From assembly GCA_016195665.1 (NCBI GenBank), contig JACPZD010000028.1, positions 62,001 through 126,000 on the forward strand: a DNA stretch of 64,000 bases. Direction: 5' to 3'. The notes beneath the pieces were generated by a model. That model was given only the letters and a program-made list of their open reading frames with translations, was not told the DNA's origin and did no database searches. The DNA comes from Gammaproteobacteria bacterium (GTDB lineage: Bacteria > Pseudomonadota > Gammaproteobacteria > SURF-13). This document shows, in pieces, positions 8,300 through 59,560 of this stretch. The translations under genes were made by a program, and so were the position numbers. Position 1 is the stretch's first letter, and the number at the start of each line of letters is the position of its first letter.

Positions 8300-8601
8300 T
8301 AGGGACAAATGATTTCACCGCAGAGGACGCTGAGGATACAAGGAAGTTACTCATAAAGTCAGTAAGTAACTCTACACTTCCCGCTACGTCCCCGCCCCCT
8401 GTTCAGGGGGCGGGGACAGGGTGGGGGTAGATAAAACAGTGTATTTCTCAGGAGTCACATCATAAGAGCATTGTAACCTTACTTTGTGACTCCTGAGTAA
8501 AACTCAAACCTTGCAATTCAGCGATAGGAATATAAATTCCTCTCAACGATTCTCAATCATTTTTATCTGCGTCCTCCGCGGTAAATCAAGCTTTCTCTAA
8601 C
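8300..8601. repeat. A-family element, copy 2, interrupted by an F element
   Basis: The outer parts (8300-8349 and 8498-8601) closely match the uninterrupted element at 32866-33011: TAGGGACAAATGATTTCACC at the left, GCGGTAAATCAAGCTT at the right, and the shared middle AACTCAAA...TTGCAA...TTCAGCGATAG. The 148-bp F element sits in the middle. The element fills the whole gap between prsT copy 2 and prsR. Confidence 0.82.
8350..8497. mobile_element. F-family MITE, copy 1 (TA target duplication)
   Basis: A 148-bp element with short inverted ends (CTCATAAAGTCA and TGACTCCTGAG). It contains a GC-rich hairpin around CCCCCTGTTCAGGGGG and an internal copy of the end motif (CTCAGGAGTCAC). It is flanked by TA on both sides. 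Comparison with the homologous empty site at 32866-33011 gives the boundaries exactly. A TA duplication is typical of IS630/Tc1-mariner-type transposition, so it is probably a non-autonomous relative of such an element. Confidence 0.78.
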
Positions 8602-13677: not shown

Positions 13678-13781
13678 ACTGACTGCAAAATATAACCGCA
13701 GAGGTCGCAGAGGAGATGCGTTATTTCAAGACACCCCCAACACCTCTGCGTCCTCAGCGGTGAGTTTTTTATCAGCGCATC
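13678..13781. repeat. A-family palindrome, copy 4 (first of a direct duplication)
   Basis: Starts ACTGACTGCAAAATATAACC, carries CGCAGAGGTCGCAGAGG and the facing CCTCTGCGTCCTCAGCGG, and ends TTTTTTATCAGCGCATC. The same string recurs at 13816-13939, so the pair is a direct duplication of over 100 bp. Confidence 0.8.
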
Positions 13782-13813
13782 CGGTGCAATGCGCTACGCT
13801 TATTGCACCCTAC
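13778..13813. repeat. Short dispersed palindrome, copy 1 (GCGCTACGC core)
   Basis: CATCCGGTGCAATGCGCTAC followed by GCTTATTGCACCCTAC. The two TGCAAT/ATTGCA arms form a hairpin. A close reverse-complement copy is at 43122-43155. The repeat joins the two direct A copies. Confidence 0.6.
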
Positions 13814-13815
13814 AT

Positions 13816-13939
13816 ACTGACTGCAAAATATAACCGCAGAGGTCGCAGAGGAGATGCGTTATTTCAAGACACCCCCCAACTATTTCAAGACACCCCCCAA
13901 CATCTCTGCGCTCAGCGGTGAGTTTTTTATCAGCGCATC
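13816..13939. repeat. A-family palindrome, copy 5 (second of a direct duplication)
   Basis: This is the second copy of the 13678-13781 unit. It differs by an internal tandem duplication of about 20 bases (TATTTCAAGACACCCCCC occurs twice) and a small deletion in the right arm. The rest of the gap up to 14139 shows no gene I can support. Confidence 0.8.
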
Positions 13940-14274: not shown

Positions 14275-15219
14275 ATGAAAACAGCCAAACTCGCTCTTTC
14301 CCTGCCTGTGCTGTGGTCGCTCTCCGCGACCGCCGATATAGTCAGCCCCTCTCTCGGCGCGCTGGAAGCCGCGGCCAGCCAGGGGGACCCCGAGGCCCAA
14401 ACGGCGTTGGCCGTAAGATATGAGCATGCGGAAGGGGTGCCCAGGAATTACTCCAGGGCCATCGAGCTTTACTGCAAGGCCGCCAAGCAGGGCGGCGCCA
14501 ACGCCCAGTTCAAGCTCGGCTGGATGTACGCCAACGGCCGCGGTGTGTCACGGGACGACGGCCTGGCTCTGGCGCTGTTTGATCTCGCGGCCAAGCAGGG
14601 ACACAGCTTCGCGCAACAGATGATGGGTAACATGGGTGAGGCGATCCAACCCAAGACGCCGGCCTGCCTTAAACCGGAATCTGTTCCCATCCAGAATTTG
14701 GCCCTCGACTCACCGGCGAAGAAAGAGATCGCAAAGCTGGTCTATCAACTGGCCCCGGCTTACTCCGTAGACCTGGCGCTGGCGCTGGCGATCATCGCCG
14801 TCGAATCCGGCTTCCGGGTCAACGCGGTCTCGCCCAGGCAAGCCCAGGGCCTGATGCAGCTCATCCCGTCCACCGCACAACGGTTCCGCGTCAAGAACGC
14901 CTTTGACGCCGCCGACAACATCAAGGGCGGCCTGGCCTATCTGCAGTGGCTGCTCGCCTATTTTCAGGGTAACATCTTTTACGTCGCGGCCGCTTATAAC
15001 GCCGGCGAGGGCGCGGTGGACCAGTATCACGGCGTGCCTCCTTATCCCGAGACGCAAAGCTACGTAGGAAAGGTCACCAGGATGTACCCGAAAACCCAAC
15101 ATCCCTATCAGGAGCACATCACCGGCCCGTCGCCGCTGGTGACGAAGCTTGAGGTGGCGCTGGTCGCTCCCGGCATCCTGCCTCCCGCGACACTAGTACG
15201 TCCCGGTACGTCGCAATGA
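14275..15219 (+). CDS. Lytic transglycosylase with Sel1-like repeats
   Basis: A secreted peptidoglycan lytic transglycosylase of about 314 residues. The N-terminus MKTAKLALSLPVLW...ATA is a signal peptide. Two Sel1/TPR-like repeats follow (GDPEAQTALAVRYEHAEG, GGANAQFKLGWMYANGRG). The SLT domain has catalytic Glu in AIIAVESGF, then GLMQLIPSTA and AAYNAGEGAV. ATG 14275 is used because it gives a clean signal peptide; ATG 14251 is also possible. The last 18 codons, reading VAPGILPPATLVRPGTS, come from a D repeat that provides the C-terminus just before the stop. The stop overlaps the next start (ATGA). A PEP-CTERM-box-like site lies upstream, so it may belong to the PrsR regulon. Confidence 0.85.
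   Translation: MKTAKLALSLPVLWSLSATADIVSPSLGALEAAASQGDPEAQTALAVRYEHAEGVPRNYSRAIELYCKAAKQGGANAQFKLGWMYANGRGVSRDDGLALALFDLAAKQGHSFAQQMMGNMGEAIQPKTPACLKPESVPIQNLALDSPAKKEIAKLVYQLAPAYSVDLALALAIIAVESGFRVNAVSPRQAQGLMQLIPSTAQRFRVKNAFDAADNIKGGLAYLQWLLAYFQGNIFYVAAAYNAGEGAVDQYHGVPPYPETQSYVGKVTRMYPKTQHPYQEHITGPSPLVTKLEVALVAPGILPPATLVRPGTSQ
15173..15212 (-). repeat. D-family palindromic element, copy 1 (inside coding sequence)
   Basis: GTCGCTCCCGGCATCCTGCC, then TCCCGCGACACTAGTACGTC and a truncated right end. It encodes the tail of the transglycosylase. Related copies are at 28935, 33965 and 54381, and the E subfamily at 26071 and 37351. Confidence 0.82.
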
Positions 15220-15560
15220 ACGAGCTATTCGGCTGGATCATCGTAACGGGCCTGGGCCTGGTCATCATCGGCATATTTCTGTTGTCCAGCCAGATTTCCG
15301 AGCATATGCGGGTCGCCGCCCAGATGATAGTGAACGGCAACAAACAGATCCTCGATCGCCTTGCCGCATTCACCCACCCCTCACCTCAGGAGCAGCCTAC
15401 TGCTCAGCCCGGCAGAACCATCGAACGCCGGATTTATCAAAGAAGGGACCCGCTTAAGCAGCTTATGCAGGCTGCGGCGGAAGGCGAGCGCAGACGCTCT
15501 CCCGGCCGCCGCCTTGAGGATATGCTCGCGGCTCACGCGGCAGGCTACAGCCCTGATTGA
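15216..15560 (+). CDS. Small single-span membrane protein, unknown function
   Basis: A 114-residue protein with one N-terminal membrane helix (about residues 5-25, WIIVTGLGLVIIGIFLL). An amphipathic helix and a charged, Arg-rich C-terminal half follow (ERRIYQRRDPLKQL, ERRRSPGRRLEDML). I recognise no family. Its ATG overlaps the transglycosylase stop by four bases, so the two are translationally coupled and probably act together. The PEP-CTERM box of the next gene begins directly after its stop. The terminal D repeat of the upstream gene sits right at the junction. Confidence 0.7.
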   Translation: MNELFGWIIVTGLGLVIIGIFLLSSQISEHMRVAAQMIVNGNKQILDRLAAFTHPSPQEQPTAQPGRTIERRIYQRRDPLKQLMQAAAEGERRRSPGRRLEDMLAAHAAGYSPD

Positions 15561-15737: not shown

Positions 15738-16874
15738 ATGAATAAAAAATACAGCGCCATTGCGGCCGGCGTGATGATGGCCGTGGCGGGTACGGCAGCC
15801 GAGGCCTCGCATTTTCGCGGCGCCGCGATGATACCAAGCGTCAACGCCAACGGTCTATTAACCGTAACCACCACTAATTTCTGGCGGCCAACGGGTGTTT
15901 CAAGCGCGTTTGCCTCAGTCGGCGGGGGAGCAACTTTTGTAAGTTCGGCTCCATCCGTTATAGACACCAGTGACAGCCGTTTCACCAAGGTCACAAATGT
16001 TGACACGTATCAATTAAATAACGCCGGGACCTACGGCATCAGTTGGAGCAGTTGCTGCCGTGTAGCAGGGATTCGCAATTGGGATGGTTTCGGATCGAGC
16101 TCAACCAGCTGGACCATGAATTCGACCATCGTGTGGAACGGCGCCACCGCCAACACGCCCATCCTGTTTAACTTCAGCTCGGTGCAGCCCGAGGTGGTGC
16201 GCGGCGTGAACTACAACGGTAATCTCGGCGCCGTTGGCGGCGCGGGCATCACCCTAAGCTACGACCAGACTCTGAACGGCATACCGGTGCAACCGCCTGG
16301 ATTTGCCGTCGACACCAGTACCGGCGCCCTTTCCATACCTGCTGTCAACACTGCGGCCTATATTGATAATAGCGGAGGTAATGCGGGCGCCGACTATGCC
16401 TTCAGCGGCAATATCAACGCGAGCGACGGCAGCAAAGTGGAATTCGACTGGCTATTCGACGCGGTGAACACCGCCGGCAATAACGCGCCTACCGTGACCG
16501 ACGCCATCATCAATGCCTTGGTCGGCGCCACTGTCAACCATACCTTCACCGCGACCGATGACGGTCTGCCGAATCCTCCCAACGCATTGACTTGGAGCGG
16601 CCTTGTCGGCTTCTTGGGCGCCGCCCCGGCGATCCTTCCGACGTTTAATCCTCTGACCCAGGTGTTCACCTGGAATACCACCGGTTCCGCCGTGGGTACC
16701 TATATTGCTCTGGTTCAGGCCTCGGATGGTTCTCTTACCGATATTGGCCAGTTGACCATTAAGCTGGGGACGCAGCCAGGCCGGGTGCCCGAGCCCGCGA
16801 CTTTATCGCTGCTCGGCTTGGGGCTCGCCGGCTTGGGGTGGATAGGCCGCAGGAAAAAGCCGGCCAACGGCTGA
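15738..16874 (+). CDS. PEP-CTERM protein with Ig-like domain
   Basis: A 378-residue exported protein. The signal peptide covers about residues 1-23 (MNKKYSAIAAGVMMAVAGTAAEA). The body is Gly/Asn/Thr/Ser-rich with an SSCCRV cysteine pair near residue 100. A cadherin/Ig-like segment follows (about 250-345, NNAPTVTDAI...HTFTATDDG). The C-terminal sorting signal is VPEPATLSLLGLGLAGLGWI followed by GRRKK. The start is fixed by AAGGAG (15723-15728). It is preceded by a PEP-CTERM box and sigma-54 promoter and followed by a strong terminator, so it is a monocistronic unit probably switched by PrsK/PrsR. It is likely a surface or matrix protein released or anchored by exosortase; the precise role is unknown. 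Confidence 0.9.
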   Translation: MNKKYSAIAAGVMMAVAGTAAEASHFRGAAMIPSVNANGLLTVTTTNFWRPTGVSSAFASVGGGATFVSSAPSVIDTSDSRFTKVTNVDTYQLNNAGTYGISWSSCCRVAGIRNWDGFGSSSTSWTMNSTIVWNGATANTPILFNFSSVQPEVVRGVNYNGNLGAVGGAGITLSYDQTLNGIPVQPPGFAVDTSTGALSIPAVNTAAYIDNSGGNAGADYAFSGNINASDGSKVEFDWLFDAVNTAGNNAPTVTDAIINALVGATVNHTFTATDDGLPNPPNALTWSGLVGFLGAAPAILPTFNPLTQVFTWNTTGSAVGTYIALVQASDGSLTDIGQLTIKLGTQPGRVPEPATLSLLGLGLAGLGWIGRRKKPANG

Positions 16875-16974: not shown

Positions 16975-17094
16975 AGAATCTCTGATTTATTCATGTTGAA
17001 CCGCCAAGACGCCAAGATTTTTCTTTACAATTCAAGCTCTTTTCTTGGCGGCCTTGGCGCCTTGGCGGTTGGCGACATATTTTTCAGAGTTTCC
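16975..17094. repeat. B-family palindromic element, copy 1 (diverged)
   Basis: Same layout as the copies at 24266 and 56631 but shorter and more diverged: a CTCTGATTTATTCATG left arm, facing AACCGCCAAGACGCCAAG and CTTGGCGCCTTGGCGGTT arms, and a right end CAGAGTTTCC followed by TTAA. Confidence 0.8.
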
Positions 17095-17129
17095 TTAAAC
17101 TAAATAAGTGACCCTTCCGGAAATCCAGA

Positions 17130-24242: not shown

Positions 24243-24265
24243 GGCAGTTCAGCCCAGCTTTTTAA

Positions 24266-24396
24266 GGAATCCCTGATTTATTCATGCTGAACCGCCAAGA
24301 CGCCAAGGGCGCCATGATTTTTTCCCTACAATTCAAGCCTTTTTTCTTGGTGACCTTGGCGCCTTGGCGGTTGGCGATATATTTTTCAGAGCTTCC
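24266..24396. repeat. B-family palindromic element, copy 2
   Basis: A 131-bp imperfect palindrome bounded by TTAA on both sides (24262-24265 and 24397-24400). Ends are GGAATCCCTGATTTATTCAT and CTCTGAAAAATATATCGCCA on the other strand. It differs at only a few positions from the reverse-oriented copy at 56631-56761, so it moved recently. Its right part encodes the last codons and stop of argA. Confidence 0.88.
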
Positions 24397-25709
24397 TTAA
24401 TAAAAACCTTGGAGTTGCGCTGATAGTTGTACAAGGCTTGCCGCGCGACCGGCAGGTCTTTGATACTCCCTGCCTTAAAAGCGCGCTCCTGAAACCAGTG
24501 CGGGGTGTGAGTGGTGAGCACAAACAATCGTTTGATCTTGCCCTGCTTAGCCCTGCGCTCAATCTCCCCCAGCAACGCCTCGCCGCGCCCGGCATCCCGA
24601 TAGTCGGGGTGCACGGCCAGGGCGGCCAACTCCCCGACCCCTTCTTTTGGATATGGATAGAGCGCCGCGCAGCCTATGACCATGCCATCGCGTTCCATGA
24701 CCGTGAAGTGGCCGATCTCGGTTTCCAGGCGCTCCCGCGAACGGCGCACCAATACGCCATCCTCTTCCAGGGGCGCAATCAGTTCCAGAATGCCAGCGAC
24801 ATCATCAATCGTCGCGGCGCGCATGTCTTCATACACATCGCCCGCGATGAGCGTGCCGACGCCGTCGCGGGTGAACAATTCCAGCAGCAGCGCGCCGTCG
24901 GTACGGCGGCTGATGAGATGCGCGCGCCGTACGCCGTTTTGACAGGCCCGCACGGCGCAGGCGAGGTGGCTCTTCACGTTGGCATCCAGCGCACGTTTGC
25001 TGAACAGCACCCTTTGCGCTTCGCTGAGCGTCAATTGCCGCAATAACTGCTTTTTCTCATCCGCCAGGCCGGGGCCCTCGGTCAAGCACAGCAGTTTGTC
25101 CGCGCGAAGCTCCACCGCCACAGCGGTAGCGACATCCTCCGCGCTCAGGTTAAACACTTCCCCGGTGGGCGAATAGCCGAGCGGCGAGAGCAGCACCACG
25201 GCATTGTCGTCCAGCGCCTTTTGCAAGGCCTGCGCGTCCACGCGCCGCACCTCGCCCGTGTGCTCGAAATCCACGCCGTCGCGCACCCCGAGCGGGTGCG
25301 CAATAATATAATTGCCGGAGGAGGCGCGGATGCGCGCGCCCGCCATGGGGGAGTTAGCCACGCCCATGGAGAGCAGGGCCTCAATCTCCACGCGCAGCGC
25401 GCCCGCTGCCTGTTTTACGCAGGCGAGCGCCTCGCTGCCGGTCACGCGCAGGCCATTGTGATGGCGCGTTTTAACGCCGCGCTCGCGCAAAATCTCTTCA
25501 ATCTGCGGGCGGGCGCCGTGCACCAGCACCAGCCGCACGCCCAACGTGTTGAGCAGCGCAATATCCTGGATGAAATGGGGAAAGCGCGCATCCGCCACCA
25601 TCTCGCCACCGAACGTGATGACAAACGTGCGGCCGCTATGCGCCTTGATATAAGGGGCGGAGTGGCGGAACCAGTTTACAAACGCGGCGTTGTTATTTTT
25701 TTCCGGCAT
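24333..25709 (-). CDS. argA: N-acetylglutamate synthase ArgA
   Basis: A 458-residue protein catalysing acetyl-CoA plus glutamate to N-acetylglutamate, the first arginine biosynthesis step. An N-terminal amino-acid-kinase-like domain (about 20-290, FVITFGGEMVAD, LVHGARPQIE) is followed by a GNAT acetyltransferase domain (about 300-440, ELAALAVHPDYRDAGRGEALL). The classical gammaproteobacterial ArgA ends shortly after the NYQRNSKV block. Here the tail IKEALKNISPTAKAPRSPRK is encoded by the inserted B element, which also gives the stop. The product is probably still active because the extension follows the folded domain. Confidence 0.92.
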   Translation of the reverse strand: MPEKNNNAAFVNWFRHSAPYIKAHSGRTFVITFGGEMVADARFPHFIQDIALLNTLGVRLVLVHGARPQIEEILRERGVKTRHHNGLRVTGSEALACVKQAAGALRVEIEALLSMGVANSPMAGARIRASSGNYIIAHPLGVRDGVDFEHTGEVRRVDAQALQKALDDNAVVLLSPLGYSPTGEVFNLSAEDVATAVAVELRADKLLCLTEGPGLADEKKQLLRQLTLSEAQRVLFSKRALDANVKSHLACAVRACQNGVRRAHLISRRTDGALLLELFTRDGVGTLIAGDVYEDMRAATIDDVAGILELIAPLEEDGVLVRRSRERLETEIGHFTVMERDGMVIGCAALYPYPKEGVGELAALAVHPDYRDAGRGEALLGEIERRAKQGKIKRLFVLTTHTPHWFQERAFKAGSIKDLPVARQALYNYQRNSKVFIKEALKNISPTAKAPRSPRKKA

Positions 25710-26031: not shown

Positions 26032-26244
26032 GGAAGCTCTGAATAAGTCCGTCCCGGACTTCTCAGAGCACGGCCGCTCCTGCGCATCCCTGCGCCCGCG
26101 GCATTGGGGCGTCCTGCCCGGCAAAAAGCAAAAACGTGGCCATAAGATTATTATGGTGCTTTTCTTCATTTCAAACACTTGCGTGTTTGAAAAATGGCGG
26201 TGCATCCCTGCACCGCAGGAACCTCTGACTTAATCAGAGGTTCC
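26032..26244. mobile_element. Composite B-ended element with internal E repeat
   Basis: A 213-bp insertion flanked by TTAA duplications (26028-26031 and 26245-26248). Its ends GGAAGCTCTGAATAAG and CTTAATCAGAGGTTCC match B-family termini. It contains an E repeat (26071-26123), a perfect hairpin TTTCAAACAC/TTGC/GTGTTTGAAA (26169-26192) and a second hairpin GGTGCA/TCCC/TGCACC. It carries no coding capacity and sits inside a toxin gene. Confidence 0.8.
26071..26123. repeat. E-subfamily repeat, copy 2
   Basis: CGGCCGCTCCTGCGCATCCC, continuing TGCGCCCGCGGCATTGGGGC and GTCCTGCCCGGCA. It aligns over its full length with 37351-37403, and more loosely with D elements (CGCTCC, GCATCC, TGC, CGCGGCATT and CGTC in the same order). 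Confidence 0.75.
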
Positions 26245-28823: not shown

Positions 28824-28934
28824 TATTCCACCTTTAAGGACATGTCAGCCTTCAGGCTTTTAAGCAAGCCTAGCGTCTCGATAACACAAGACATTTTCAC
28901 GTTTTGGTCTGTTACGATTCCGGGGCGCCCTGGC

Positions 28935-29051
28935 CGCTCCCGGCATCCTGCCTGCCGTGCCGTACAGGGAAGAGCGACAGCGAAGGGTTCTACCAATGTC
29001 GCGGGAGGCAGGATGCCGGGAGCGACCGGCATTAGTACGTCCCTGTACGTC
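28935..29051. repeat. D-family element, copy 2 (double, with 19-bp arms)
   Basis: Two D units face each other. Perfect 19-bp arms CGCTCCCGGCATCCTGCCT (28935-28953) and their complement (29006-29024) surround a 52-base centre. A second pair, CGTACAGGGA and TCCCTGTACG, is nested across them. The element ends exactly at the dnaQ stop codon (29050-29052), contributing its first bases on the plus strand. Confidence 0.8.
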
Positions 29052-29757
29052 ACAACTGCTTCCATACACAGCGCCCGCCGCTCGTCTTATCTATCGCTTC
29101 CAGACGCTGCAAGTGAGCAGCGGATTCATCAGTTGTCGCCAGCGGCACACTGAGGCGCGGGCGGTCGGCCTGCAGGCGGCGGGACGCCTGCTGGGCCTGT
29201 GTGCTGTCCGAGGCGCCGCTATCCAGTGACAGGCTGGCCTGGCCGCCGGTCATGGCCAAATAGACATCAACCAGGATTTCGGCATCGAGCAGCGCGCCGT
29301 GCAGGGTGCGTTGCGAGTTGTCCACCCCGTAACGCTTGCACAGGGCATCGAGGCTGTTTTTTTGGCCGGGATGAAGCTGACGGCCCAAGGTGAGGGTACA
29401 GAAGACCGGACAGTAGCGGCCTATCGGCCCCCTGTCTCCCCCCAGCAGCGATAACTCGCGGTTCAGGAATCCGACATCAAATGCAGCGTTATGGATAATC
29501 AATTCCGCATCGCGGACAAAATTCAGAAACTCCTCCGCGACGTCGCGAAAGCGCGGCTTGTCGGCGAGAAACTCGTCGGTCAGGCCGTGCACCTCCATGG
29601 CGCCGGGATCTATGGGACGCTCGGGGTGCAGGTATTGATGATAGCGGTTACCGGTGGGGCGGCGATTGACCAGTTCGACGCAGCCGATCTCGATGATCCT
29701 GTGCCCCTTCTCGGGGTCCAGACCGGTAGTTTCGGTGTCCAGCACAATTTGTCGCAT
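29050..29757 (-). CDS. dnaQ: DNA polymerase III epsilon subunit (3'-5' exonuclease)
   Basis: A 235-residue proofreading subunit of the replicative polymerase. DEDDh motifs: D7 and E9 (LDTETTGLD), the second Asp in HNAAFDVGFLNREL, and His/Asp in HGALLDAEILVDVYL. The C-terminal tail, which contacts the alpha subunit, is present (residues about 185-235). It lies on the same strand as rnhA, unlike the divergent rnhA/dnaQ pair of E. coli. The D repeat abuts its stop. Confidence 0.94.
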   Translation of the reverse strand: MRQIVLDTETTGLDPEKGHRIIEIGCVELVNRRPTGNRYHQYLHPERPIDPGAMEVHGLTDEFLADKPRFRDVAEEFLNFVRDAELIIHNAAFDVGFLNRELSLLGGDRGPIGRYCPVFCTLTLGRQLHPGQKNSLDALCKRYGVDNSQRTLHGALLDAEILVDVYLAMTGGQASLSLDSGASDSTQAQQASRRLQADRPRLSVPLATTDESAAHLQRLEAIDKTSGGRCVWKQL

Positions 29758-29815: not shown

Positions 29816-29938
29816 TATCCACAAATAGTTCTTGCGGTGAAAAAGCTTCACCACGGAGGGCGGAGAGGAGAAACAAACCCTTCTTGAGGGTATTCCTCTG
29901 CGTCCTCTGCGGTAAATTATTTATGGATACGTTCTTAG
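29816..29938. repeat. A-family palindromic element, copy 6
   Basis: TATCCACAAATAG at the left and, inverted, CTAAGAACGTATCCATAAAT at the right. Inside are facing arms CACCACGGAGGGCGGAGAGG and CCTCTGCGTCCTCTGCGGT. The right end encodes the last residues (LRTYP) and stop of rnhA, exactly as copy 1 does for a PEP-CTERM protein. Confidence 0.85.
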
Positions 29939-30367
29939 TTTGTCTATCGCCTGCGTAGCCAGCTGGTCCGCGCGTTCGTTTTCCGGATGACCAGAGTGTC
30001 CCCGCACCCAGTGCCACTCCACCTCGTGGGCCTCCAGGGCCCGATCCAGGCGTTCCCACAGGTCGGCGTTCTTGACCGGTTTTTTGTCTGAGGTCTTCCA
30101 ACCGCGCCGCTTCCATCCCGCCAGCCATTCCGTGATTCCTTTGTGCAGGTATTGGGAATCGGTCGTGACGCGCACCTTGCAGGGGCGGCGCAACGATTCC
30201 AGCGCCTGGATGGCGGCCATCATCTCCATGCGGTTGTTGGTGGTGTGGGCCTCACCGCCCGATAACTGCTTCTCATGGCCCTTGTAGCGCAACAAGGCGC
30301 CCCAGCCGCCCGGCCCGGGGTTGCCGCGGCAGGCGCCGTCGCTGAAGATCTCCACCCGATCAGTCAT
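29921..30367 (-). CDS. rnhA: Ribonuclease HI
   Basis: A 148-residue enzyme that degrades the RNA strand of RNA-DNA hybrids. All catalytic residues are in place: D10 ([11 protein letters not shown]), E48 (NRMEMM), D70 (TTDSQYL), H124 and D134 ([11 protein letters not shown]). The start overlaps the upstream methyltransferase stop by eight bases, so they are co-transcribed. The final LRTYP and the TAA come from the A repeat. Confidence 0.95.
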
Positions 30368-36351: not shown

Positions 36352-37329
36352 TCAGTTCAGCCTCACGCGCGGGTCTACCAAGGTATAAGAAATATCGGTG
36401 AGCAACAGACCGATAATGTAGAGCACCGAGCCCAGAAAGACCATGGCGCGCACGACGGCGAAGTCCTGGGCCTGAATCGCATCTATGGTGTAACTGCCCA
36501 AACCGGGAATACCGAAAAAAGATTCCAGGATCAGGCTGCCCAGGAACAGGATGGGCAAGATCACGACCACACCGGTGAGGATGGGGATCATGGCGTTTTT
36601 CAATACATGGGTGAACAGCACGCGCACCTCGGAGAGGCCCTTGGCGCGTGCGGTGCGCACATAGTCTTTGCCCAGCTCTTCCAGAAACAGGGTGCGATAG
36701 AGACGTATGCCTGCGCCCATTCCGCCGATCACTCCGATGATCACCGGCAGCACGATAAACTTGAAGGCATTAATACCCATGTCATAGCCGGAGATCGGCG
36801 CCAGGCGCCACAGCTTGCTGATGAGGTATTGCCCGCCGATGATATAAAACAACCCTGAGATGGACATCATGATGATGCAAATCACCACGCCCCAGAGATC
36901 AATATAGGATCCGCGAAAAAAAGCCAGCAGCAGGGCAAAGCTGATCTGCACCCCAATGCCTATAATCAACGTGGGTACTGCAATGGCGAGGCTCGGCCAC
37001 ATGCGGGCGCTGATCTCGCGGCCGATGCTGCGGCCGTCATCGGCGCGCCCGAATTCAAAGGCGAGCAGGGCCAGAGACTTTTCAAAAAAGATGGTGTCGG
37101 TGACTTTTCCCATACCGGCCGCCTGTTCGTTAACCATGAGCGGCTTGTCGTAACCGCGCTCGGCCTTCCACTTTTCTATCGCCTCCTGTGTGACGCGCTT
37201 TACGCCAAGGTGCATACGGGCCATGTCATCCGGACTGTTGACGACGAAAAATAAAACAAAGGTGATGAGATTGACGCCGATCAGTATCGGGATGGCATAC
37301 AGCACGCGGCGGATGATATAGGCGATCAT
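36352..37329 (-). CDS. Peptide ABC transporter permease (YejB/DppB type)
   Basis: A 325-residue inner-membrane permease starting MIAYIIRRVLYAIP, the usual DppB-type beginning. It has about six helices and the coupling loop LGKDYVRTARAKGLSEVRVLFTHVLKNA. ATG 37329 is chosen because it overlaps the substrate-binding protein stop (ATGA) and gives the family start; upstream in-frame codons are only E-repeat sequence. The E repeat occupies the region where a ribosome site would be expected, so translation probably relies on coupling. Confidence 0.9.
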   Translation of the reverse strand: MIAYIIRRVLYAIPILIGVNLITFVLFFVVNSPDDMARMHLGVKRVTQEAIEKWKAERGYDKPLMVNEQAAGMGKVTDTIFFEKSLALLAFEFGRADDGRSIGREISARMWPSLAIAVPTLIIGIGVQISFALLLAFFRGSYIDLWGVVICIIMMSISGLFYIIGGQYLISKLWRLAPISGYDMGINAFKFIVLPVIIGVIGGMGAGIRLYRTLFLEELGKDYVRTARAKGLSEVRVLFTHVLKNAMIPILTGVVVILPILFLGSLILESFFGIPGLGSYTIDAIQAQDFAVVRAMVFLGSVLYIIGLLLTDISYTLVDPRVRLN

Positions 37330-39545
37330 AATGCGGGGCTGCGTTCCCTGCGGCCGCTCCTGCGCATCCCTGCGCTCGCGGCATTGGTGCGTCGTGCCCG
37401 GCACAGATAACTCAGCATGGCGGGGAAGATGCTGATAAACAAGATCACCACGATGCCAAATAGCGGCGTCAAGATAGGCTTGTTCCACTCTGCGCGCTGC
37501 TTGCTGCGCAGTCCGGCGTCAATGCGTATATATTTCAACTCGTTGTTGGCCATCTCGTTGGGCTTGGCGTTTTCATACCAGGCGTGGTACAGACCGAATT
37601 TCTTGCGATGCAATCCCCACAACAGCGGCGCATCCTTGCGCGCGATCTCCATCATCTTGTTGATGATCGCCTGACGCTCCGGGCCATTGTCCATGTTTTT
37701 CATCTGTTCAAATAATTTGTTGAACTCCGGGTTGTCGTAGTTCGCCGCGTTTTCACCGTTCTTGCCCACTTTGGCATTGGGGCCGTAGAGCAGAAACATA
37801 AAGTTTTCGGGATCGGGATAATCCGCGTTCCAGCCCCACTGCCAGATCTGCGCGTTGCCCTTCAGCATCTTTTCCTGAAAGCGGTTGAAATCGGTATTGC
37901 GGATATCCAATTGCAAATCCAGTTTCTGAAACTGCTTGCGCAACCAGTCGAGATAGGCCTTGTCATCGGGGCCTCGCAGCGCGGTATCAAAATGCAGCAA
38001 TAGCGGCTTGCCCGTCTGCGCATCTCGCCCGTTCGGATAGCCCGCCTCGGCCAGCAGGCGGCGCGCCTCTTCGAGCGATTTGCGCTGCGGCCGGCCGTTC
38101 ACCCAATCATAGACATAAGGATTAACACCCGTCTCGCCTTCTACATAGCCGAAGATGCCGGGCGGGATGGGCCCTTGCGCCGGAATGCCGCGCCCGTTGA
38201 GAAAGATGGAGATGAACTCTTCATAATCCACCGCGATAGAGATCGCCTGGCGTAGTTTGCGCGCGCGTTCGCTCAGGCCACCCACCACCGGGTCGAGCAT
38301 GTTGAAGCCCATGTAAGAGAGATCCGTGCCGATACTGGTAAGCAGGCGAATACCCTTTCCCTGCATCCCCTCCGTCACCGCCACATCACCGCCCGTCGAG
38401 ATGCGCACCGCCTGATCGAAGCTGTCGGAACTGATGCCTGAGGCGTCGTAATAGCCTTGTAGAAATTTGTTCCAATACGGAATACTCTCTTTTTCCAGAC
38501 TGTATACCGCCTTGTCAATAAACGGCAACGGCTTGCCGGCATCAGCGAGCAGGCCACGCTCTCTGTCTTCGGGTTCGCCTTCGCCGGGATACGTTTCACC
38601 GTGAAAATTGGGATTGCGTTCCAACACCAACTGGCGATTGGGATCATTCACCGTGAGACGGTAAGCACCGGTGCCGACGGGATACCAGTCTAGCGTGATG
38701 TTCTTTTCAATGAGCCCGGGTTGTGAATAAAAACGATCCGCCTCCGGCGGGACAGGCGCAAAAAAAGGCATCGCCAGCCAATACAAAAGTTGCGGGTATT
38801 TGCCGCGCACCTTGATGCGATAGGTGTAACGATCGAGCGCCGTAACGCCTTCCAAGGGATAACGGGTGAGATCGAGATAGCTCTGATCGCCCTGTTCCTT
38901 CGCTGCATTGTTTAACATCTCGCCATATTCTTTAAGCCCCACGATATATTCGCTCATCAAACCAAAAATAGGCGAGTGTATGCCGGGGTGTGCGAGGCGC
39001 TTGATCTGATACACGTAGTCATCGGCGACCAGCTCACGGCTGTCGCGGTATTTAAAGTCCCGGAGCGTATCAATTCCGGCAAGCTCGGAGGAAGTCAATC
39101 GGTGATAACGATAATTCCCGGTCTCGTCACGGGCGAAGGCCGGGTGGGGTTCATAGCGTATGCCGGGCTTGATGCGGATGTCGTAAATGCTGAAGGCGAT
39201 ATCCTTGGTCTCAGCGGTTTCCGGTAAAACCTTGCCCTCCGCGTCGAGATACACTGCATGCGGCATCTCTTGGGCGGCGAGCGGGATGAGTGTGTAGGGG
39301 CGTTTTAGATAATGATATTGCAACGGCGGTTCATAGATCTGCGCGATCAAGGCAAATTCGTTTTCGACATAGGATCGCGCAGGATCGAGGTGTTTGGGAC
39401 GCTCGGTGAAGGAGGAATAGAGGATATTCTTGCCCTCCTCGTGAGCGGGGTAAGGATTATTCCAGGCCTGCCCGGTGCAAGCAACGAGTGACGCCGAGAT
39501 CACGGCGAAAAACAGGCTTCGGAGCGGGCGGGCGGTGAGATTCAT
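37326..39545 (-). CDS. Peptide ABC transporter substrate-binding lipoprotein
   Basis: About 739 residues. The SBP_bac_5 family protein captures oligopeptides in the periplasm for the downstream permeases. Its lipobox is near residue 23 (SLVACTGQ). Family motifs include RPKHLDPARSY and WGWNADYPDPENF. Unusually, a C-terminal membrane helix (PLFGIVVILFISIFPAMLSYL) would tether it. The last roughly 25 residues (CRARRTNAASAGMRRSGRRE and on) are translated from an E repeat, so the protein gains an Arg-rich cytoplasmic tail. The start may be 39545 or 39554; neither has a strong ribosome site. Confidence 0.85.
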   Translation of the reverse strand: MNLTARPLRSLFFAVISASLVACTGQAWNNPYPAHEEGKNILYSSFTERPKHLDPARSYVENEFALIAQIYEPPLQYHYLKRPYTLIPLAAQEMPHAVYLDAEGKVLPETAETKDIAFSIYDIRIKPGIRYEPHPAFARDETGNYRYHRLTSSELAGIDTLRDFKYRDSRELVADDYVYQIKRLAHPGIHSPIFGLMSEYIVGLKEYGEMLNNAAKEQGDQSYLDLTRYPLEGVTALDRYTYRIKVRGKYPQLLYWLAMPFFAPVPPEADRFYSQPGLIEKNITLDWYPVGTGAYRLTVNDPNRQLVLERNPNFHGETYPGEGEPEDRERGLLADAGKPLPFIDKAVYSLEKESIPYWNKFLQGYYDASGISSDSFDQAVRISTGGDVAVTEGMQGKGIRLLTSIGTDLSYMGFNMLDPVVGGLSERARKLRQAISIAVDYEEFISIFLNGRGIPAQGPIPPGIFGYVEGETGVNPYVYDWVNGRPQRKSLEEARRLLAEAGYPNGRDAQTGKPLLLHFDTALRGPDDKAYLDWLRKQFQKLDLQLDIRNTDFNRFQEKMLKGNAQIWQWGWNADYPDPENFMFLLYGPNAKVGKNGENAANYDNPEFNKLFEQMKNMDNGPERQAIINKMMEIARKDAPLLWGLHRKKFGLYHAWYENAKPNEMANNELKYIRIDAGLRSKQRAEWNKPILTPLFGIVVILFISIFPAMLSYLCRARRTNAASAGMRRSGRRERSPAL
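37351..37403. repeat. E-subfamily repeat, copy 1 (inside coding sequence)
   Basis: CGGCCGCTCCTGCGCATCCC, continuing TGCGCTCGCGGCATTGGTGC and GTCGTGCCCGGCA. It is nearly identical to 26071-26123 and shares the order of motifs with D elements. It forms the 3' end of the substrate-binding protein gene. Confidence 0.8.
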
Positions 39546-39667
39546 TCCTATCATCTTGTCGGAAGCGTGAGCGAAGCGCAATCCTTTAGCATGAAGTTGC
39601 GGGTGGCAAGTCGCCCAGGAACACCCTACACTATATAATAGCCTTGATATAAGAAAAGGATAAATCC

Positions 39668-49076: not shown

Positions 49077-49082
49077 GTACTC

Positions 49083-49178
49083 TCTTGCGGTGAAAAAGCT
49101 TCACCACGGAGGACGCAGAGGAAACAAACTACTTTTGATTGCATTCCCCTGCGCCCTCTGCGGTAAATGATTGATGGG
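49083..49178. repeat. A-family palindrome, copy 9
   Basis: CTTGCGGTGAAAAAGCTTCA followed by CCACGGAGGACGCAGAGG, and facing CCCCTGCGCCCTCTGCGGT. The left half is very similar to copy 6. It lies in the ftsK-lolA gap. Confidence 0.78.
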
Positions 49179-49185
49179 GGATTTC

Positions 49186-51477
49186 CTAATCTCGCGGCGG
49201 CGGCGCCAGCACTTCGCGCGAACCGTTGGATTGAAGGGGTCCGACCACACCGGCCTGCTCCATTTCCTCGATCAGCCGTGCGGCGCGGTTATAGCCGATC
49301 TTAAGACGGCGCTGGATGCCGGATATCGAGGCGCGGCGGGTCTCGGTAACGATGTTGAGCGCCTGGTCATAAAGAGGGTCACTCTCAACGTTGGACAGCT
49401 CATCGCTGAAAGAGTTGCCTCGCTCTTCCACATCGCCGCCGCTCAGCACTTCTTCAAGATAGGCCGGCGCGCCCTGTCGCTTGAGATAGGCGGCGACCTT
49501 GTGCACTTCGTGGTCGGCCACAAAGGCGCCGTGGATGCGGGTAGGCATCCCGGTCCCGGGCGGCAAATAGAGCATGTCGCCGTGACCCAACAACTGCTCT
49601 GCCCCCATCTGATCGAGGATGGTGCGCGAATCTATTTTGGAGGAAACCTGAAAGGCGATGCGCGAAGGGATATTGGCCTTGATGAGGCCTGTAATCACGT
49701 CCACCGAGGGCCGCTGCGTGGCGAGAATAAGATGGATGCCCGAGGCGCGCGCCTTTTGCGCAAGGCGTGCGATGAGGTCTTCCACTTTTTTGCCGACCAC
49801 CATCATCATGTCGGCCAGATCGTCAATGACGACGACGATATACGGGACCGGCTCGAGCAACGGCGTAGCCAGTCCGTCCACGGGGGTGTGAAACGGATGC
49901 GCGATAGGCTGACCGCTCGCCTCGGCCTCATGGATGCGTTTGTTGTAGCCGCCGATGTTGCGTACCCCCAGCGCCGACATTAAACGATAGCGCTTGTCCA
50001 TCTCCGCAACACACCAGCGCAGCGCGTGCGCCGCTTCCTTCATGTCGGTGACTACCGGCGTCAACAGGTGCGGGATGCCTTCATAAATGGAAAGCTCCAG
50101 CATCTTCGGATCTATCAGGATCAGGCGCACCTCGTCGGGCTTGGCGTTGAAGAGCAGACTCAAGATCATGGCGTTGATCGCCACCGATTTACCGGAGCCG
50201 GTGGTACCCGCCACCAGCAGGTGCGGCATCTTGGCGAGATCCACCACCACCGGATGACCACTGATGTCCATGCCCAGGGCGAGCGTAAGCTTTGATGCCG
50301 CATCGTTGTATTCTTTGGACTGCAGTGTCTCAGTGAGCCGTACCAGGCTGCGCCGCTCATTGGGTATTTCCAGCCCGATCACCGGCTTGCCGGGAATGAC
50401 CTCAACGATACGCACGCTGGGCACGGACAAACTGCGCGCGAGGTCTTTCACCAGATTGGTGATCTGGTTGACCTTCAAACCGGGCGTAGGCTGCAACTCA
50501 AAGCGCGTGATCACCGGGCCGGGATGCACGGCGACCACTTGCACCTCGATGCCGAAGTCGAGCAGTTTCAACTCAACCTGGCGCGACATGGCCTGCAGTG
50601 CGTCGTCGGAGAGACCTTGCTGCGCGGGTTCGGGAGGATCGAGCAACGACAACGGCGGCAAGGAACCGGCGGGCTGGTCGAACAAAGGCACCTGCCGTTC
50701 CTTCTCCACCCGTTCGCTCACCTCGAAATTCTTGATGACCGGCTCAATGCGCGGCGGCGTCCGTTTGCCTGTCTTTATGCGCTGCGCCGTCACCGTCTCA
50801 TCGCGCTGGATGCGCGCGCGGCGTCCGGCCCAGCGCTCCTGCAGGTCGAGCCACAGCGGTCTGAGTCTTGCCATGAGGGTGAGGGTTAGGCGGCCCAGGG
50901 TATCGGTCAGCCACAGCCAGGAAAGGCCCGTCGCCAAGGTCACGCCAGTCAGAAACAAGGCCAGCATCAACAGTGTCGCACCCAGAGGATTGAATGCGCC
51001 TACCAGACCCTTTACAACCTCTTCGCCAAGGATGCCGCCGGCGCTCTCCGGCATGGTCGCGGAGAAGATGTGCAATGTCGCCAGTCCAGCGCCCGCCGTG
51101 AGCGCCAGCACAAAGCCGACGCCGGCCAGTATCAAATGGCGCGGATCGAACCCTTCACCGCTGTGACGCTGTTTGAACACCACCCAGCCGGCGTAGCCAA
51201 TCATCAGCGGAAACAGATAGGCAAGGTAGCCAAACAGGTGTAAGAAGATGTCGGCAAACCACGCCCCCGCAACCCCCCCCCTATTGGCTACCTGGCCTGC
51301 GGCGTCACTATGCCACCAGCCCGGGTCCGAGGGCTGGTGAGTAGAGAGCGACGCCCACAGATACACGGCAATCGCACCGCCTAAAAACAACGCGCCTTCG
51401 CGCAGGCGCGGGCCCAGGCGGCGCGCCAGCGGCGCAAAGGGATTGACGGGATCTTTTTTGCGAGAGGCTTGGGGCAT
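49186..51477 (-). CDS. ftsK: DNA translocase FtsK
   Basis: A 763-residue septal DNA pump for chromosome dimer resolution. Four N-terminal membrane helices (about 25-180) are followed by a short linker, shorter than in E. coli FtsK. The RecA-like motor has Walker A GTTGSGKS (about 418) and [13 protein letters not shown]. The C-terminal gamma winged helix (about 700-760, [24 protein letters not shown]) reads KOPS. The upstream J repeat leaves no clear ribosome site. Confidence 0.95.
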
Positions 51478-53657: not shown

Positions 53658-56546
<2,889 letters not shown>

Positions 56547-56630
56547 TAATCGGCTCTCCAGCGAAGCTTTACTCTAGACAGAAGGTATATAATCTCCTGC
56601 GCGTTTTGGGTGGTGTCTAATCTTAGTTAG

Positions 56631-56761
56631 GGAAGCTCTGAAAAAAATATCGCCAACCGCCAAGGCGCCAAGGTCACCAAGAAAAAAGGCTTGAATTGTA
56701 GGGAAAAAATCATGGCGCCCTTGGCGTCTTGGCGGTTCAGCATGAATAAATCAGGGATTCC
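56631..56761. repeat. B-family palindromic element, copy 3
   Basis: A 131-bp element flanked by TTAG on both sides (56627-56630 and 56762-56765). It is almost identical, in reverse orientation, to copy 2 at 24266-24396. It lies downstream of uvrA. Confidence 0.9.
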
Positions 56762-56783
56762 TTAGATTGCTGAGAATCGTGTA

Positions 56784-59461: not shown

Positions 59462-59483
59462 CACTATGCTCCTCCAAAAAATC

Positions 59484-59552
59484 TTCACCGCAGAGGGCGC
59501 GGGAAGAAGACTATTTGGATTATATTTCTCTGCATCCTCTGCGGTAAGCTTT
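59484..59552. repeat. A-family palindrome, copy 10
   Basis: CTTCACCGCAGAGGGCGCGG and facing TCTCTGCATCCTCTGCGGTA. It lies between the peroxidase start and the rplQ terminator. Confidence 0.72.
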
Positions 59553-59560
59553 AGTCATAA

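Follow-up and report, generated by a model that had tools for sequence, protein, structure and literature searches.

A lytic transglycosylase gene with Sel1 repeats, located at positions 14275-15219 (+ strand) of a 64,000-nucleotide gammaproteobacterial stretch (referred to here as the window), ends in a repeated sequence, and its stop codon overlaps the start of the next gene. This arrangement raises the question of whether the repeat supplied the enzyme with a new 3′ end or was placed ahead of an end that already existed, and of what became of the coupling to the downstream gene. Pfam identifies an SLT domain (4.4e-25) and Sel1 repeats (6.3e-17) in the product. The reading frame is open from 14233, and a putative ATG start codon at 14275 gives a signal-peptide-like N terminus.

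The mobile unit itself occupies 15163-15213 (+) and reads GTC GCT CCC GGC ATC CTG CCT CCC GCG ACA CTA GTA CGT CCC GGT ACG TCG, which translates as VAPGILPPATLVRPGTS, exactly 17 codons of the transglycosylase frame, so that the C terminus is ...LEVAL-VAPGILPPATLVRPGTS-Q*. A covariance model (R1) matches 15162-15213 with 77.9 bits; the 51-nt limits of the unit are taken from nested and cross-species empty sites, its hairpins are supported by covariation, and the left-junction G at 15162 is assigned to the target from the flank composition of 78 copies. Hairpin 1 spans 15163-15191 and hairpin 2 spans 15193-15213. The target at this site is G|CAAT (consensus about G|SARG). Outside the repeat, the six nucleotides CAA TGA (15214-15219) form the last codon and the stop, placing the entry point one codon ahead of the TGA (15217-15219), which overlaps the downstream ATG (15216) as ATGA at 15216-15219. 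A 30-nt core of the repeat has four matches in the window at ≤3 mismatches, against 0 expected from 100 shuffles. The original prediction, that a repeat makes the C-terminal tail, is borne out, since the last 17 residues before the final Q are the repeat. Its span of 15173-15219 does contain the repeat, with shifted ends that miss the first 10 nt of the unit and overrun it by 6 nt; similarly, the stop said to follow at once does overlap the next start, and it lies outside the repeat, one codon (CAA) later. The tail peptide had also been described as almost the same as one inside an ABC ATPase, and 14 of 17 residues are indeed identical to those of the copy at 34014-33964 (minus), which lies in frame between the halves of a double oligopeptide/dipeptide ATPase.

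The element consists of two adjoining hairpins and is REP-like. Hairpin 1 has the form GTCGC-TCCC-GGCA-TCC-TGCC-TCCC-GCGAC and hairpin 2 the form Y-TA-GTAC-NTCCNT-GTAC-GTC-R. In hairpin 2, columns 32 and 52 are C-G or T-A in 123 of 125 copies, columns 36-47, 37-46 and 35-48 give further covariation support, and the covariation is lost when the partners are slid by 1-3 columns. Peptides encoded by the repeat include VAPGILPPATLV and STNVAGGR. Using the covariance model, built from 33 diverse copies, we identified 135 copies in the 2.38-Mb assembly, possibly an underestimate because no more than 150 candidates were scored, and between 9 and 60 copies in each of 11 other gammaproteobacterial genomes. 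Plain DNA similarity detects the repeat in 45 of 369 genomes of the class, and its distribution across Gammaproteobacteria is patchy. Contigs with an exact match to the core are assigned to Nitrosomonas, Sedimenticola, Rhodanobacter, Stenotrophomonas, Pseudomonas and tubeworm or clam symbionts, many of these being metagenome bins whose names may be wrong, and a phylum-wide model scan, which scored 14 candidates per genome and so yields lower bounds, gave at least a few weak matches in another class. At the transglycosylase site Rfam returned no family, just sub-threshold chance matches. No description of the two-hairpin family was found in the literature, although the figures or supplements of PMC3733652 may list it, and the element is apparently undescribed so far and unusually gene-friendly.

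Further copies lie elsewhere in the window. One is in frame in uvrA, read antisense (54380-54430, minus), and a nested pair, in which a 69-nt variant sits within another copy, lies just 3′ of a DNA polymerase III epsilon-like gene (28932-29052). Two copies of a type-2 sister form were also found: an intergenic one at 26072-26123 (+, 51.9 bits), and one at 37352-37403 (+, 45.3 bits) that constitutes the C-terminal end of a solute-binding-protein-like ORF (37326-39581, minus), a second repeat-made tail within the window. The window additionally carries a separate family rich in CCGCAGAGGACGCAGAGGA motifs (1436-1558, 8300-8500, 13678-13939, 29831-29939, 49081-49193 and 59470-59558), which is mainly intergenic and occurs in part as inverted pairs, and a third family (CTTGGCGCCTTGGCGGTT) of ~146 nt, with inverted copies that are ≤97% alike (17037-17113, 24255-24400 and 56612-56772). 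Two genes 3′ of the transglycosylase, a PEP-CTERM-like protein (15738-16874) ends in VPEPATLSLLGLGLAGLGWIGRRKK.

The exact unit can be read from copies that have inserted into one another. In 12 nested copies of the assembly, removing 51 nt, or 69 nt where the longer variant is involved, rejoins an uninterrupted element, as at the junction tgtcgcgg|gaggcagg. Among 78 well-bounded copies the unit measures 51 nt in 76 and 69 nt in the other two; both lengths are multiples of three, and units of 17 or 23 codons therefore never shift the reading frame. The same 78 copies define the target preference, a G to the left of the insertion point and SARG to its right. An aminotransferase-V/IscS-like gene of a second genus (assigned by eye) presents three states at one site: the element is absent from genome G280, present once in G026 as a degenerate type-2 copy (+51 nt), and interrupted in G173 by a further 51-nt unit, with no target duplication. 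This series (L277:1267-1318, L287, L288/L289) is a natural record of successive in-frame insertions. A second cross-species site (L276), intergenic and in a messy surround, was left out as an empty site.

The IS200/IS605 family inserts without target duplication, and nine Y1_Tnp genes are present in the assembly. No strong repeat copy was found at the Y1 transposase loci searched, comprising 8 that cover the nine genes of this genome and 7 from sister genomes; repeat copies flank none of the nine, and the sole match sharing a stretch with a Y1 gene is a weak type-2 one, >1 kb from it. An association with RAYT transposases was rejected on this basis.

Short palindromic repeats are usually kept between genes. 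To place the 135 copies relative to genes, we used a simple codon-based gene finder trained on Pfam-supported ORFs. According to these calls, 91 copies are contained entirely in predicted genes: 77 in the interior, 10 in the last 30 codons and 4 in the first 30. Of the others, 34 fall between genes and 10 run across a gene end. The 91 in-gene copies are spread over 67 predicted genes and contain no internal stop. Random positions in the same stretches are internal in 67% of cases and C-terminal in 7.3%; with 10 of 135 copies, C-terminal enrichment was rejected, and a C-terminal location such as that in the transglycosylase is nothing special. The unit is open in four of the six frames, which are used 41, 22, 11 and 5 times by the 79 strong in-gene copies, and the two stop-bearing frames are used by none. 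If the six frames were equally likely, this would have a probability of (2/3)^79, or ~1e-14, so selection against truncation is visible. Repeat-bearing genes identified by Pfam include those for UvrA, a RecB-like protein, a PD-(D/E)XK nuclease protein, ValRS, PriA, RNase E/G, iPGM, enolase, phosphofructokinase, TrpE-type anthranilate synthase, poly(A) polymerase, DNA polymerase III chi and CsoS2. Solved structures of UvrA and iPGM lack a counterpart of the repeat peptide; for enolase, comparison with the PDB gave no match at a strict threshold.

Repair genes seem to bear the repeat often, in line with reports on other REPs. At L054:401-7060 (minus), a RecB-like helicase gene and the adjoining PD-(D/E)XK nuclease gene hold several copies each, including one nested pair. 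At L293:2729-6124 (minus; contig C11 of assembly G000), a single 1131-aa ORF encodes a CbbX-like AAA+ protein (by eye, with AAA_lid_6) continuous with the carboxysome scaffold CsoS2. One repeat copy marks the boundary between the two parts, CsoS2 itself holds five others, and the ORF may represent a Rubisco-activase/scaffold fusion. The adjoining ORF (1069-2694), CsoSCA-like by eye, has one copy.

To determine what the repeat did to the transglycosylase, the ends of its orthologues (40-59% identical, the closest being L176 at 56%) were compared, in line with a check that the original prediction had proposed. Orthologues extend 15-52 residues beyond the PPYxET motif (median 30; 35 in L176), and the window protein extends 54; subtracting the 17 repeat residues leaves 37, which falls within the orthologue range. 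A tail of 52 residues occurs naturally, free of any repeat, in the orthologue L185, so length by itself is no proof of insertion. The repeat peptide is absent from 13 of 13 orthologues, and none of the 17 orthologue loci searched has a repeat match; orthologues sharing the tail without nucleotide similarity to the repeat, which would have spoken against an origin in the repeat, were accordingly not seen. In-silico removal of the 51 nt yields ...TKLEVALQ* with the TGA and the ATGA overlap unchanged. Because excision leaves the same stop, the same overlap and a tail of orthologue-like length, the repeat appears to have extended an existing end, and the proposal that it supplied a new 3′ end does not stand; the joined flanks presumably approximate the gene before insertion.

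We therefore regard the tail as the product of one insertion, ahead of an existing stop, of a 51-nt, two-hairpin, REP-like, non-autonomous mobile element (probability about 0.88). The element would have entered at G|CA, one codon 5′ of the transglycosylase’s TGA, adding VAPGILPPATLVRPGTS and leaving the stop and the ATGA overlap untouched. The unit's length of 17 codons, its lack of target duplication and its four open frames out of six make such an outcome possible. The added residues lie outside the catalytic domain and, if translated as predicted, are most likely neutral.

A different history, in which the original 3′ end gave way to the repeat and the ORF now reads through to a new stop with the overlap kept, would explain why a stop lies within 6 nt of the repeat, and has a precedent in an ERIC/RU-1 element that eliminates the stop of the amidase ECA3499 (PMC2759123). 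We consider it highly improbable, as the TGA is outside the 51-nt unit, the joined flanks keep frame, stop and overlap while restoring both an orthologue-like length and a Shine-Dalgarno sequence, and every resolved insertion has added 51 nt cleanly, deleting nothing. It could also be asked whether the repeat transposes at all, or spreads by gene conversion or template switching between copies, as the lack of an associated dedicated transposase and the nesting of copies at shared sites would allow. Most copies, however, have unrelated surroundings, sharp 51-nt limits and a target of about G|SARG, and the cross-species empty site records a de novo insertion, which makes such exchange an improbable route. 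Duplication-free insertion and conserved hairpins fit single-strand HUH transposition, and the element is possibly mobilised in trans, as folded single-stranded DNA, by an IS200/IS605-type (Y1, HUH) transposase.

Under the preferred reading of a simple insertion, its effect on the neighbour depends on the nature of the downstream gene, a 114-aa orphan ORF with a hydrophobic N terminus (15216-15560, +) and a per-codon coding score of 0.15, within the range of real genes. It has no relative in 36 relatives or in 368 other genomes of the class, and a conserved downstream gene was accordingly rejected. It adjoins none of the transglycosylase orthologues, whose 3′ genes differ (for example probable thyA and aroC, by eye). 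With an orphan ORF here and other genes elsewhere, there is no visible ancestral coupling to preserve. Upstream, GAGGTG (15151-15156, +) is probably the former Shine-Dalgarno sequence of this gene, lying 8 nt from its ATG in the joined flanks and 59 nt from it now, and the nearest 24 nt upstream of the present ATG contain no anti-SD match of at least 4 nt. As anti-SD matches of at least 6 nt occur at about 2.2% of all ATGs, the displacement is no more than suggestive; it nevertheless makes it more likely that coupling was altered than preserved. The claim of preserved coupling consequently survives only in the trivial sense that the ATGA overlap was kept: relatives offer it no comparative support, the downstream gene having no counterpart in them, and the likely Shine-Dalgarno sequence was displaced. 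The insertion may have made the downstream start lean more on reinitiation at the ATGA, as the sequence suggests.

A stronger version would hold that the insertion is functional, parting the Shine-Dalgarno sequence from its start and pairing it, so that translation of the small membrane protein depends on termination-reinitiation at the ATGA. The 8-nt spacing in the joined flanks, the absence of even a 4-nt match now and the rarity of 6-nt matches agree with this proposal, as does a predicted fold that pairs GAGGTGG with CTGCCTC of the repeat. That fold was predicted from energies for a single sequence, the downstream ORF lacks relatives, and copies are not enriched in the last 30 codons of genes; we therefore judge such a function rather unlikely.

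About two thirds of the ~135 copies form in-frame coding sequence within essential genes, and the nested and cross-species empty sites yield the exact unit and target. Together they make it testable whether coding palindromes are tolerated through their insertion mode (frame neutrality) or through the encoded peptide, and the transglycosylase with its overlapping neighbour offers a concrete case for measuring the effect of an insertion on translation coupling. We tentatively propose a broader picture, which may well need revision, of a widespread gammaproteobacterial element that is frame-neutral by form (17 or 23 codons, no duplication, four open frames), spreads through coding sequence, decorates dozens of core proteins in one genome and sometimes changes gene coupling.

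Among known palindromic elements, the closest parallels are the GTAG and CGTC REPs, which are likewise short, high-copy palindromes able to sit in frame in genes; the text of Di Nocera et al. (2013, PMC3733652) describes REPs inside repair genes such as uvrA, places just over 10% of intragenic REPs at coding-region ends, and notes that CGTC families are without a dedicated transposase. As characterized in that text, they are single hairpins of 20-40 bp and mostly intergenic, whereas the present unit comprises 51 nt with two adjoining, covarying hairpins and about two thirds of its copies are intragenic. The terminal unpaired GTAG tag of the GTAG super-family is absent from the consensus of the 33 diverse and of 125 ungapped copies, GTAG being found solely inside the 69-nt variant, and the RAYT association of that super-family was likewise not seen for the two-hairpin family at the Y1 loci searched. 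The CGTC super-family, as defined in the text of the same source, has an unpaired terminal CGTC, an 8-9 bp stem beginning AT and a CCA-like tail, a combination not seen here: CGTC occupies positions 48-51, with its C paired to G35 and R52 (paired with Y32) coming next, and the stem differs. Like REPINs/RAYTs and IS200/IS605 derivatives, the element is hairpin DNA that inserts without duplication at a short preferred target (about G|SARG) in a genome with Y1 genes; unlike them, it has no copies beside those genes and no GTAG tag. It also differs from MITEs, its ends being two different hairpins and its nested and cross-species empty sites showing no target duplication. With ERIC/RU-1 in ECA3499 (Delihas 2007, PMC2759123) the transglycosylase case shares a mobile repeat that forms extra C-terminal residues of an otherwise conserved enzyme; that 127-bp element apparently eliminated the normal stop, while the transglycosylase stop was kept. 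Rickettsia palindromic elements (RPEs), described earlier and about 150 bp long (PMC10969869), similarly lie in frame in many unrelated genes that are presumably functional, and are distinguished from the 51- or 69-nt gammaproteobacterial units by size and host; for the latter, exact frame neutrality follows from unit length and duplication-free insertion. Protein-coding palindromes are thus already known, and the two-hairpin family differs from them in tag and length yet works like them.
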